A stretch of 64,000 nt of DNA from an uncultured Pelagibacteraceae bacterium (GTDB lineage: Bacteria; Pseudomonadota; Alphaproteobacteria; Pelagibacterales; Pelagibacteraceae). The stretch covers positions 62,001-126,000 of the forward strand of contig CABYXR010000001.1 in assembly GCA_902522955.1 (NCBI GenBank), given 5' to 3'. This document shows, one piece after another, positions 16,386 to 23,123 of the stretch; position 1 is the stretch's first letter; each line of letters begins with the position of its first letter. The translations under genes were made by a program, and so were the position numbers. The notes under the pieces were generated by a model. The model saw nothing but the letters and a program-made list of their open reading frames with translations, did no database searches and had not been told where the DNA came from.

Positions 16386-18083
16386 TTATAAACCTAAAAT
16401 TAATTTTTTTCTTACATCATTTTTAAGATCATCTTCCGTTTCTTCGAGAATTAATACGTAGTTCCAATAATACCTAGCTTGAATCTTTTTTCCAAATTTC
16501 CACAAAACATCTCCAAAATGATCATTCACTATCGGATCGGCAGGCATTAATTGGACTGCAAGTTGAAGATAATTTTTTGACTCCTCGTATTTTTTTAGTT
16601 TAAATAAAGCCCAGCCTAATGAGTCAATAATATAAGGATCATTAGATTTTAAATTATTTGCTTTCTCCAACATTTTTAATGATTTTTCAATTTTAATTCC
16701 CTTTTCAATCCAAGAATATGCAAGATAATTTATTACGTAAGCCTGATTTGGGTTTGCATCTAAAGAGGCGAGCAAATCTTTTTCTGCTTTTTCCCATTCT
16801 CCTAATCTTTCGTAAACAACACCCCTTCCGTCTGTTGTTTCTGGATAAAGAGGATGATCTTTATTAATTAATTGAATTATTTCCGTATAATAGTTTATAG
16901 CTTTTTCGTATTTTTTATTTCTTTTCAAAAATTCAGCGAAATCAAAAGTATCATATATGTTTTTATATTTAAGTTTTTCATAGTTTTTTGTCATTAACTT
17001 AATCGCTTCGTCATTATTTTTTTCTTTTTGAAAGATTAGTGCTTTTTGTTTAGTTGCATACCATAGATATACAGAGCCTTGTTTTTTTATTTTGTTATAG
17101 ATCTTTTTGGATTTGTTAAAATTTTCTATTTTATAAAAATTTTCCGCTAACAACGTATCAAATGAGTAAAAATCTTTGTTTAGATATTTTGACAAATTTA
17201 AATAAAAATTTGAGTGAGAATACATTGATTGAGAGGAAAAAGCATTGGCAGTGATATAAAGTATTTCAGCTATTACATTTGATTGTTTTTTGCAATTAAA
17301 ACTAGATTTAAAATCGTTTTCTATAACTAGATCTATCTTAAATTGATTTAATAGTAAATTCCTTGGATACAGTTCAGTAGAGGAATTTAAAATTTTTTTT
17401 GCATCATCAATCCTTCCTAAATTATATAAATAATTTGCATAGAAATAATTATATCTAGAAAAATCAATTTTCTTATCATTTATAAGCCTTTTAAAAAAAA
17501 CATCAGTATTAACATCATTGAAATAACAATGTAAAAAAACATTTTGTATTCTTTTTAAATTCTCAAAGACAGGCTCAGTAGAATTAATCTTTTTTTTAGC
17601 AGAATTTAAATTAGTACTATCTAAACCAACCCAATTTAATAATGATTCTATAATAAATGAATTTAATAAAATTTCTGTTTTTCTTTTTTTTATTTTTAAA
17701 AAATATTTTTTAGCAAGATTATTTTCTTCATTTTTGAGGTAATAAATACCTATAATTAAATCACTTTCAAATGTACTTTGATTTTTTTTTTCTAATTTTT
17801 TTGAGAAGTGAAATGCTTCATTTATCTTACCTAAATTTACTAAAGTAAATAAATACCTCTTGCCAAAATTTGAGTGACTTCTTTCCAAATCGCTTAATCT
17901 GTTAAAATACTTATAGGACTCACTGTATTGATTGTTATTCAAAGATAATATTCCTGAAAAATAATTTGAAATATTTTTTCCCTTAGCTAAAAGATCTGAA
18001 TTTTTTGCTTCAGCTGTGGAAAAAAAAATGATGACAAAAAAGAATTGTAATGTAAATTTAAGAGAATTTTTAAATTTGTTCAT
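16386..18083 (-). CDS. Tetratricopeptide repeat protein with signal sequence
   Basis: N-terminal signal-like segment; repeated TPR pattern in the C-terminal half (YEKAINYYTEIIQL..., WEKAEKDLLASLDANPNQAYVINYLAYSW...). Confidence 0.85.
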   Translation of the reverse strand: MNKFKNSLKFTLQFFFVIIFFSTAEAKNSDLLAKGKNISNYFSGILSLNNNQYSESYKYFNRLSDLERSHSNFGKRYLFTLVNLGKINEAFHFSKKLEKKNQSTFESDLIIGIYYLKNEENNLAKKYFLKIKKRKTEILLNSFIIESLLNWVGLDSTNLNSAKKKINSTEPVFENLKRIQNVFLHCYFNDVNTDVFFKRLINDKKIDFSRYNYFYANYLYNLGRIDDAKKILNSSTELYPRNLLLNQFKIDLVIENDFKSSFNCKKQSNVIAEILYITANAFSSQSMYSHSNFYLNLSKYLNKDFYSFDTLLAENFYKIENFNKSKKIYNKIKKQGSVYLWYATKQKALIFQKEKNNDEAIKLMTKNYEKLKYKNIYDTFDFAEFLKRNKKYEKAINYYTEIIQLINKDHPLYPETTDGRGVVYERLGEWEKAEKDLLASLDANPNQAYVINYLAYSWIEKGIKIEKSLKMLEKANNLKSNDPYIIDSLGWALFKLKKYEESKNYLQLAVQLMPADPIVNDHFGDVLWKFGKKIQARYYWNYVLILEETEDDLKNDVRKKLILGL

Positions 18084-18090
18084 ATAAAAA

Positions 18091-18792
18091 ATGCTTAAAA
18101 AAATTAATACAAAAACAATTAAACTGCTAAAATTTTATAAGCTTATTAATTATAATTTAATTTACAATAATAAAGTAATCAATAGATATAAAAATAAAAA
18201 TTATGAAATTAGTTCAGATAAGGCCAAGAAGCTTGAAAAGCTTAAAAATAATATTTCTGAAATTAAAAACTGTGAGTTGAAAAAAAATGCTTCTCAAATG
18301 GTTTTTTCTGATGGCAACCCCAAAGCGAATATTATGTTAATTGGAGAAGGTCCTGGAGCCAATGAGGATAAAGAAGGTATCCCTTTTGTTGGAAGAGCCG
18401 GAATTTTATTAGATAAAATGTTAGCTTCTATAAATCTTGATAGAAAAAAAGTGTATATATCTAATGTAGTTAATTATAGACCACCTGAAAATAGAAGACC
18501 CACAGATGAGGAGATTAAAAGATATCTGCCTTTTATTACCCAACATATAGCTATCATAAGTCCAAAAATATTAGTTTTGATGGGTAGCACTGCAATGAAC
18601 GCTCTTGTTGAAAATGAAGAAGTAATTTCAAAAGTTCGAGGAAAATGGATAGAAAAACAATTTGGTAATTGTAAGACGTCAGTTATTGTAACTTTCCATC
18701 CAGCATTCTTAATGAGACAGCCCGCCCAAAAAAAAATGGCTTGGGTTGATCTGAAAATGATAAGGGATAAAAAAGCGAAACTAAAAATTTAA
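18091..18792 (+). CDS. Uracil-DNA glycosylase, family 4 (divergent)
   Basis: MLIGEGPGANEDKEGIPFVGRAG, NVVNYRPPENRRPT, TFHPAFLMRQ; canonical Fe-S cysteines mostly absent (see findings). Confidence 0.9.
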   Translation: MLKKINTKTIKLLKFYKLINYNLIYNNKVINRYKNKNYEISSDKAKKLEKLKNNISEIKNCELKKNASQMVFSDGNPKANIMLIGEGPGANEDKEGIPFVGRAGILLDKMLASINLDRKKVYISNVVNYRPPENRRPTDEEIKRYLPFITQHIAIISPKILVLMGSTAMNALVENEEVISKVRGKWIEKQFGNCKTSVIVTFHPAFLMRQPAQKKMAWVDLKMIRDKKAKLKI

Positions 18793-19365
18793 TTGAAAAA
18801 AAAACAAATCACTGCAGGAGTTGACGAGGTTGGAAGAGGCTGTCTAGCTGGCCCTGTTGTTTCAGCTGCAGTAATTTTCAAAAATAATATTAACCTTGAG
18901 ATATTAAAAGACTCGAAAAAAATTCCTTTTAAAAAAAGATCTGAAATATCAGAACATATTAAATTAAACTCATATTATTCTATTGGCATTGCTTCTGTAA
19001 AAGAAATTCTAAATCTAAATATTTTAAAGGCATCTTTGCTGTCAATGAAAAGAGCAGTAGATAAATTATCGATTAAGCCAAGGTTAGTTTTAATTGATGG
19101 AAATTTTGCGCCCCCTGGACTAAAAAATTTTAAAACAATTATAAATGGTGATGAAAAGGTTAAAGTAATAAGTGCTGCTTCAATAGTTGCAAAAGTATAT
19201 AGAGATAATTTAATGATAAAATTATCAGAAAAATATTCAAATTATGCTTGGGATAGTAATTTTGGATATGGAACTAAAGCACACTTAACTGGTCTTAAAA
19301 AGTTTGGAGTAACCGCTCATCATAGAAAAGGCTTTAAACCAATACACAAGATGTTGTCTAAATAA
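18793..19365 (+). CDS. rnhB: Ribonuclease HII (TTG start)
   Basis: TAGVDEVGRGCLAGPVVSAAVIF, LIDGNFAP, VKVISAASIVAKVYRD. TTG follows the UDG stop codon directly. Confidence 0.96.
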   Translation: MKKKQITAGVDEVGRGCLAGPVVSAAVIFKNNINLEILKDSKKIPFKKRSEISEHIKLNSYYSIGIASVKEILNLNILKASLLSMKRAVDKLSIKPRLVLIDGNFAPPGLKNFKTIINGDEKVKVISAASIVAKVYRDNLMIKLSEKYSNYAWDSNFGYGTKAHLTGLKKFGVTAHHRKGFKPIHKMLSK

Positions 19366-20518: not shown

Positions 20519-21645
20519 TTTTTATACACTGTACCCAAATATGATTTAATAAAGCTCTTTCTTTTCAGTAGAAATTTCATGAAAAAATTCCTTATTTTTT
20601 GCATAACCGGATTTGAAAGATGAAAAGCAAAAAAATTAAAGTTTGATCTATTTCTGACTAATTTTGCCCTAATTGATCTTTTACGGAAATAATCATTTTG
20701 TATATCTAATCTTTCTTTCTGAAGCAATTTAAACAGCTCAAAAGCACTTTCTATAGACTGGCCTGCGCCTTGAGCTAAAGTTGGTAAAAATCCATTAAAA
20801 GCATCTCCAATATAAAAAACTTTATCATTTGAAGAAGGAAGAATTTTAGGAGTCGAATATAATGGCCAGGATTTTAATTCACCATTAAAGACTTTCTCTA
20901 AATTTGAATTTTGATTAACAACTTTTTCAACTAAGGATTTAATATCATCAGGATCATATCTTTTACTTCTGATGATGCAAACAAGATTAAGATCTTTATT
21001 TTTATTAATCGGGTAAAAGACTAAATGGCAATTTTTTCCCATCATTAGACTTATTCTATCCTCATTAATATTTAATTTAGTTTTCGAATTAACTATTGTT
21101 CTTAAAGCTACAGCTTTATTAAATTTCGGCTTATTTTTTTTCTTTTCAAAAAAAGATCTAGTATTGGAAAAAATACCGTCAGCGACAATGACAATATCAA
21201 CTAAATCGTTCGTATTATCATCAAATTTTAAAAGTACTTTACCTTTTAATTCTGAAACCTCTTTGATTCGCTTTCCAAATCTCAAATGCTGGGTGTAAAT
21301 ATCGTCTTTTAAAAATTCAATTAAAGTAGATCTTTGTAAAGTAGTATACTTGCTTTCTGTCGTATTAAATTGACCCAAATCTAAGTCACATATTTTTATA
21401 TTTTGAATATCATAAAAATCAATTGCCTGTGGATTAAAAATATTTTCTTCACTTATTTTTTTAAAACCGATGTGATTTAAAACATTTATACTATTACTTG
21501 ATAATTGAATTCCATATCCTTCGTCTAGAGATAAACTTTCATCTTTCTCATACAACATAAATTCATGATCAGAATTTTTACTGATCAAATTTGCCAGGGT
21601 TAACCCTGCTATCCCTGCACCAATGATAGCCAATTTTTTTTTCAT
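20515..21645 (-). CDS. FAD-dependent monooxygenase (UbiH/salicylate hydroxylase-like)
   Basis: LAIIGAGIAGLTLANLISKN Rossmann motif; VADGIFSNTRSFF; GDAFNGFLPTLAQGAGQSIESAFEL. Confidence 0.85.
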   Translation of the reverse strand: MKKKLAIIGAGIAGLTLANLISKNSDHEFMLYEKDESLSLDEGYGIQLSSNSINVLNHIGFKKISEENIFNPQAIDFYDIQNIKICDLDLGQFNTTESKYTTLQRSTLIEFLKDDIYTQHLRFGKRIKEVSELKGKVLLKFDDNTNDLVDIVIVADGIFSNTRSFFEKKKNKPKFNKAVALRTIVNSKTKLNINEDRISLMMGKNCHLVFYPINKNKDLNLVCIIRSKRYDPDDIKSLVEKVVNQNSNLEKVFNGELKSWPLYSTPKILPSSNDKVFYIGDAFNGFLPTLAQGAGQSIESAFELFKLLQKERLDIQNDYFRKRSIRAKLVRNRSNFNFFAFHLSNPVMQKIRNFFMKFLLKRKSFIKSYLGTVYKN

Positions 21646-22646
21646 TAGAATAAAATTGAGACTTGCTTAAATATTTTCTTTGTAAAACTCGGAATAAATT
21701 CCTTATTGTTATTTAATGAGTGCCAATTGTGTGTTGCAGGTATTTTATTTGAAAATTTATAATATAAATTAATGTTTAATTTTAAATTTGATATAGAATT
21801 TTTATATTTAGTTAGAAATTTCCAGTTTTTATTTTTTGCTGAATTATCTGATTCTTTAATTGTGGGTAAATTGCAATTTTTCAAAAAACCTATTTGATTT
21901 TTTTTTGTTAAAGCTATTTGTCTTTTTTTGTTTATATAACAATAAATATCATAATTTTTATCTTTAATCATTTTTTTACCAGGATTTTTTATCTTTCTAT
22001 TAGATTTAAAATACTTGCAAGATTTATTCAAACAACAATTGATACAATTTGGGTCTTTTGGTTTACATATTAAAGCACCAAATTCCATTAAAGCTTCTAC
22101 AAAATCTGCATTGCGATTTGTGCTAAATAATTTTTCTTTATTTTTTAAAATTAATTTTTCAAAATTTATTTTTGCTATTTCTTTATTCAAGTATCTTGAA
22201 AAAACTCTTTTAACGTTTCCATCAATTGCAATAGTGGGCATATCATATACTAAACCTAATAAAGCGTTTCCGGTATACTCCCCTACTCCAGGTAACTTTT
22301 TAATTTCTTTCAAGGTTTTGGGAAGTTTAAATTTATAATTATTTACCAATTGTTGTGAGCATTTTAAAAGATTTTTAGCTCTCCGGTAATATCCCAGGCC
22401 TTCCCACATTTTGAGAATTTCTTTTTCATTGCTTTTCGATAAATGTTTTAAAGTTTTATATTTTTTGGTAAAATTATTAAAATATGGGATAACTGTTTTT
22501 ACTTGAGTTTGTTGAAGCATAAATTCGCTTAAAAGCCTATAATAAAGCTTTTTATTTGATTTTTTACTAACACGCCAAGGTAAGTTGCGTTTATTATTAT
22601 CATACCAACGTATAATTTTATTTGATAAATTGGAATTTAAATGCAT
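21645..22646 (-). CDS. mutY: A/G-specific adenine glycosylase
   Basis: WYDNNKRNLPWR, MLQQTQVKTVIPYFNNF, LPGVGEYTGNALLG, C-x6-C-x2-C-x5-C cluster (CKPKDPNCINCCLNKSC). Start ATG 22646 preferred over the ORF-track start at 22682. Confidence 0.95.
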   Translation of the reverse strand: MHLNSNLSNKIIRWYDNNKRNLPWRVSKKSNKKLYYRLLSEFMLQQTQVKTVIPYFNNFTKKYKTLKHLSKSNEKEILKMWEGLGYYRRAKNLLKCSQQLVNNYKFKLPKTLKEIKKLPGVGEYTGNALLGLVYDMPTIAIDGNVKRVFSRYLNKEIAKINFEKLILKNKEKLFSTNRNADFVEALMEFGALICKPKDPNCINCCLNKSCKYFKSNRKIKNPGKKMIKDKNYDIYCYINKKRQIALTKKNQIGFLKNCNLPTIKESDNSAKNKNWKFLTKYKNSISNLKLNINLYYKFSNKIPATHNWHSLNNNKEFIPSFTKKIFKQVSILF

Positions 22647-23123
22647 TACAAACAGAATAATAAATATAAGATTATCGCACAAGGGTTGCGACCATTTTCT
22701 AGCTCCATACCTAAAACTTTAAAAAAATATTTAAAAAAAGGGGGTTATAATTACTCTAACATTGTTGATAACTGGACAACAATGGTTGATAAAAAGATAT
22801 CAGATTCATGTTATCCAATTTCAATCAAGATGGGCAAAGAGATGAAAAATGGCACATTAATACTTAATGTTGTTCACGGGAAAGAACTAGAAATAGAATA
22901 TGCTAAATCACAAATTATCGACAAGATAAACAGTTTTTTTGGTTATGATTGTATTAGCCAAATAAATTTGAAAATTATAGAAGAAAAAATTAAACTTAAA
23001 AAGAGTAAATTCAATAAAATTAAGAATATCTCTAAAATAAATAAAAAAATAGCTAATGTTCAAAATCTAGAATTAAAAAAATCTTTGAAAAATTTTTTGA
23101 AAGCCTTTGATGAAAAAAATTAA
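22641..23123 (+). CDS. DUF721 / DciA-family protein
   Basis: GLRPFSSSIPKTLKKYLKKGG...IVDNWTTMVDKKISDSCYPISI; 160 aa. Confidence 0.82.
   Translation: MHYKQNNKYKIIAQGLRPFSSSIPKTLKKYLKKGGYNYSNIVDNWTTMVDKKISDSCYPISIKMGKEMKNGTLILNVVHGKELEIEYAKSQIIDKINSFFGYDCISQINLKIIEEKIKLKKSKFNKIKNISKINKKIANVQNLELKKSLKNFLKAFDEKN

Follow-up and report, generated by a model that had tools for sequence, protein, structure and literature searches.

The glycosylase gene and its surroundings

The window, by which we mean the whole stretch of DNA analysed here (64,000 nucleotides from an uncultured bacterium of the SAR11 family Pelagibacteraceae), contains a full-length gene for a family-4 uracil-DNA glycosylase (UDG4) of 233 aa. 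The ORF starts with ATG and its stop codon lies inside the coordinates given. The features considered are listed below by position, with residues of the Thermus thermophilus enzyme given as Tth.

16386..18083, minus strand: TPR-repeat protein, a divergently transcribed ORF, conserved neighbour by synteny
18091..18792, plus strand: cluster-less UDG4, with one ligand-position Cys left
18262..18264, plus strand: position of cluster Cys1, codon ATT, I58 (aligned to the Tma, Tth and Sto UDG4)
18271..18273, plus strand: position of cluster Cys2, codon TGT, C61, the only ligand-position Cys retained
18343..18369, plus strand: motif 1, GEGPGANED, residues 85-93 (E86, G87 and E92 are Tth E41, G42 and E47)
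18463..18465, plus strand: N125 (Tth N80), bidentate uracil contact
18475..18477, plus strand: position of cluster Cys3, codon TAT, Y129 (Trp in most Alphaproteobacteria)
18490..18492, plus strand: N134 (Tth N89), water coordination
18523..18525, plus strand: position of cluster Cys4, codon TAT, Y145 (most Alphaproteobacteria and the sister family f2 have retained Cys)
18697..18699, plus strand: H203 in motif 2, FHPAFLMR (Tth H155), leaving-group stabilisation
18793..19365, plus strand: RNase HII (rnhB), the next gene, an ORF named from sequence resemblance, a neighbour conserved by synteny in SAR11 and in several other Alphaproteobacteria

The protein scored 200.3 bits against the curated family model TIGR00758 (UDG_fam4, cut-off 125.3) and matched PF03167 with an E value of 2e-35. 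Family 4 is defined by GE(A/G)PG in motif 1 and HPA in motif 2 (PMC10359453), and the window protein follows this pattern with GEGPG at residues 85-89 and HPAF at 203-206. Two related families could be ruled out. UdgX (Mycobacterium smegmatis 6AIL and relatives) has a similar fold and a general superfamily resemblance but carries GEQPG, a KRRIH loop and a cluster, whereas here we find GEGPG and the stretch NYRPPENRRP without the KRRIH-loop insertion. Family-5 UDGs (UdgB, Thermus 2D3Y) share the superfamily fold but are characterised by GLAPA, HPSP and four Cys, as opposed to GEGPG, HPAF and I-C-Y-Y at the ligand sites.

No further PF03167 gene was found in the source genome, and UDG4 is the sole UDG-superfamily gene detected there; at 81% completeness, this genome may lack a second UDG that the organism has, but UDG4 is also the sole PF03167 gene in 11 out of 11 relatives of the same genus with 92-98% completeness. 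The arrangement of TPR protein, UDG4, rnhB and DNA methyltransferase is common to SAR11 and partly to other Alphaproteobacteria, which fits vertical descent of the UDG4 gene.

The ligand sites of the [4Fe-4S] cluster

Both phmmer comparisons with the UDG4 structures of Thermus, Thermotoga and Sulfolobus and a MAFFT alignment of 248 rows place I58, C61, Y129 and Y145 at the four sites that hold the ligands of the [4Fe-4S] cluster. The first-pass annotation, made from the sequence alone, had assigned exactly these residues and had proposed an alignment to characterised enzymes (Thermus, Thermotoga) as a check, which indeed puts all four on the cluster Cys positions. It had also regarded other cysteines at these positions as evidence against a loss, and there are none: the protein contains only two Cys, C61 and C194, which rules out a compensating Cys elsewhere, and reads I-C-Y-Y where family 4 has four cysteines. 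With just two Cys in the whole protein, a canonical [4Fe-4S] cluster is impossible. Of the two, C61 is nearly invariant in a 103-row alignment of relatives.

Dozens of distinct genomes from the family repeat the pattern I/L-C-Y/F-Y, which rules out a sequencing error; together with the dN/dS values given below, this recurrence rules out a pseudogene as well. The SAR11 orthologues, which had been suggested as a second check, thus show that the replacements are the usual state in the family (Pelagibacteraceae by named records).

Compared with the cluster-bearing UDGa/UdgA proteins of Thermus thermophilus (1UI0), Thermotoga maritima (1VK2/1L9G) and Sulfolobus tokodaii (4ZBX), the window protein belongs to the same sequence family and has the same fold, motifs 1-3 and all mapped pocket residues, but three of the four Cys ligands are replaced (I, Y, Y) and there are about 40 extra N-terminal residues, modelled at lower confidence. 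Descent, fold, motifs and pocket place it in the family-4 lineage, where it is most fittingly classed as a variant branch without the cluster. Automatic annotation that calls such alphaproteobacterial proteins cluster-bearing family-4 UDGs is in error.

A conserved catalytic site

The uracil-pocket and catalytic residues of Thermus UDGa are E41, G42, E47, F54, N80, N89 and H155 (PMC5387724). Every one of them is kept in the window protein (E86, G87, E92, F99, N125, N134 and H203), and among 103 relatives the mapped pocket residues are mostly invariant or nearly so, with G85, E86, P88, G89, E92 and H203 identical in all sequences. The gene gave a dN/dS of about 0.06-0.11 against its congeners (dS close to saturation); the differences fall mostly on third codon positions, and this pattern of substitutions shows strong purifying selection. 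The AlphaFold model, for which no cofactors were modelled and whose input alignment included cluster-bearing relatives, reached a mean pLDDT of 91.9, with 93-98 in the blocks that contain the former cluster loops. Its best Foldseek matches were the UDG4 structures 1l9g, 4zbx and 1ui1 (TM, target, 0.84-0.88; for 1l9g, E 8e-20 and TM 0.88).

A protein deprived of its cluster might no longer be a glycosylase at all, but a pseudo-enzyme or a damage sensor. Something of this kind is suggested by a sub-clade of the same orthologue in the Pelagibacter group, where three pocket or catalytic residues are lost while purifying selection persists. However, the window protein and the sampled congeners keep all mapped catalytic residues, and UDG4 is the only UDG-superfamily gene found in their genomes, which makes the loss of glycosylase function extremely unlikely here.

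The sub-clade itself (genus g4; L041, L043, L048, L054, L055, L058, L064, L090, L091, L097, L114 and L127) combines N80 to Y, N89 to D/E and H155 to N/S (Tth numbering) with a dN/dS of about 0.1-0.25. Its protein is conserved and of UDG4 fold, but the activity has probably been lost or changed. In another genus, g5 (L123, L124 and L125), an additional UDG4 paralogue has diverged strongly: its motifs are GDYPN and FDPELL, and most pocket residues are gone.

Extent and age of the ligand loss

The absence of the ligands extends far beyond the window. Within its SAR11 family all four sites are without Cys in some genera, and the sister family f2 of the same order has F/Y-C-W-C. The four-Cys set is absent in 72 out of 72 sampled alphaproteobacterial UDG4 ORFs, a set counted without two CCCC proteins of one divergent family and without four proteins that resemble UdgX and have KRRIH-type loops; F-C-W-C occurs in 50 of these ORFs, and the Cys3 site is Trp in 71. 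In a scan of named genomes, with loci chosen by similarity to the query, both Cys1 and Cys3 were absent in all 80 loci, including those of Bradyrhizobium, Afipia, Novispirillum and Anaplasma. These alphaproteobacterial genes are orthologous to that of the window, fall in the same clade and share part of the neighbourhood, and the cluster is gone in both; they differ in that most of them retain Cys2 and Cys4 (F-C-W-C), as against I-C-Y-Y in the window protein. The other Pseudomonadota have CCCC in 39 of 40 cases.

After masking of the four ligand columns, a maximum-likelihood tree united the cluster-less rows in one clade of 77 (bootstrap 100, SH-aLRT 99). A single change of state, the loss of the cluster, was found in 100% of the bootstrap trees, the bootstrap being almost, not fully, converged. 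All cluster-less sequences fall in one clade and therefore point to one old loss. On this tree the ancestral alphaproteobacterial gene had already lost the ligands, and only Cys4 to Tyr and, at the Cys3 site, Trp to Tyr/Phe are changes of the SAR11 family. The sole sampled alphaproteobacterial UDG4s with CCCC (L220 and L225, family f77) sit on a long branch outside the cluster-less clade and were perhaps acquired by transfer.

SAR11 bacteria live in iron-limited water, and the first-pass annotation had taken the loss as a possibly iron-sparing peculiarity. The replacement of Cys4 by Tyr as well in the SAR11 family would agree with such an adaptation to an iron-poor ocean, but the loss is older than SAR11 (100/99 for the clade in the tree) and is common to soil, plant- and animal-associated Alphaproteobacteria; the sampling of sister family, class and phylum, together with the single deeper loss on the tree, rules out a SAR11-specific event. 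Intact cluster motifs also persist in other SAR11 proteins. MutY in the same window (21645-22682, minus strand) has an intact C-x6-C-x2-C-x5-C motif, as the first-pass annotation had pointed out, the source genome encodes SufB/D-type assembly proteins, and the family-5 UDG of the Pelagibacter group keeps its four Cys in 16 of 16 cases. The iron saved by a single repair enzyme would in any case be negligible. Iron sparing in SAR11 is the least probable of all the readings weighed here, leaving as conceivable an iron-related cause in a distant ancestor. The tempting story of iron limitation has to be corrected accordingly: the loss is an old trait of nearly all Alphaproteobacteria and not specific to the ocean.

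Genomes of the Pelagibacter group carry the family-5 protein (L105 and 15 similar loci; motifs GLAPA and HPSPRN, best PDB match 2d3y) alongside a UDG4 that is without its cluster, and the four-Cys scheme of the family-5 protein provides a control within the clade. Family-5 UDGs were not detected in the window's genome, elsewhere in its genus or in the sister family f2.

Proposed packing in place of the cluster

The reading that we favor, with a probability of nearly nine in ten, is that the gene encodes a working UDG of family-4 descent without a [4Fe-4S] cluster, which was lost once and early and whose place is taken by packing. The absence of iron, the contacts and the activity are what we infer in this reading. 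Since the uracil pocket is intact, the protein should flip out and bind uracil, with H203 stabilising the leaving uracilate and N134 positioning the water as in Thermus UDGa. The segments around residues 58-61 and the loop 129-145, normally tied by the cluster, would be held by hydrophobic and aromatic packing. On the simplest view, an early alphaproteobacterial step changed Cys1 to Phe and Cys3 to Trp, leaving Cys2 and Cys4 behind, and a later one in SAR11 changed Cys4 to Tyr, Trp to Tyr/Phe and Phe to Ile/Leu; Phe/Trp would have filled the ligand cavity at first, with Ile/Tyr/Tyr taking over in SAR11. The Cys3-Cys4 loop has kept its length and the RPPxNR core despite the loss of the ligands. 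A replacement of the cluster by aromatic packing had already been put forward in the first-pass annotation; the loss of the ligands and the hydrophobic or aromatic nature of the residues at their sites were borne out, and the packing contacts are predicted ones.

Viral UDG4s provide what is apparently an independent parallel, supporting aromatic packing on the strength of the residues found. In a viral collection 72 of 80 have CCCC, and four that are devoid of most or all ligands have W, Y, F and F at the Cys3 site.

A remnant of the metal site could also be imagined, in which C61 and non-Cys ligands hold some other metal or a cluster that is incomplete, bridged or bound by two ligands. C61 is, after all, nearly invariant, Cys2 and Cys4 are retained together in most Alphaproteobacteria, and His occupies the Cys3 site in three viral UDG4s. 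Yet a single Cys is insufficient for a [4Fe-4S] cluster, lineages without Cys at all four sites keep the pocket (L-I-Y-F in g7, F-N-Y-F in g5, and also F-I-W-Q and V-I-W-F), and a linked loss of Cys2 and Cys4 was not significant, with just three usable independent pairs. We consider a surviving metal site very unlikely.

The three viral proteins with His for the third Cys (L337, L339 and L391, C-C-H-C) come from viral contigs and possibly carry a Cys3His cluster, to judge by their ligand residues.

What the cluster is for

The [4Fe-4S] cluster of DNA-repair enzymes is often regarded as essential, and its role is debated between structure, redox sensing and DNA charge transport. A class-wide loss of single origin with the catalytic site kept indicates that the cluster is dispensable for retaining a UDG4. 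The broader proposition would be that across a whole bacterial class a core DNA-repair glycosylase exchanged its cluster for an aromatic/hydrophobic plug in a single early event and was retained, in the window's SAR11 genus as the sole UDG-superfamily protein, and that this was previously undescribed; we give it about an even chance. A description of a cluster-less alphaproteobacterial UDG4 was not found in the open literature searched, and priority is uncertain. If true, nature would have carried out a cluster-minus experiment on whether DNA glycosylases need the cluster for structure, for loop positioning or for DNA-mediated redox signalling, with matched pairs available in the alphaproteobacterial F-C-W-C or SAR11 I-C-Y-Y versions and the CCCC of other Pseudomonadota. 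Another alphaproteobacterial enzyme of the superfamily, BdiUng of Bradyrhizobium diazoefficiens, reported by Chembazhi et al. 2017, is said to have a family-4-like fold with GQDPA in motif 1 and to form a separate family.
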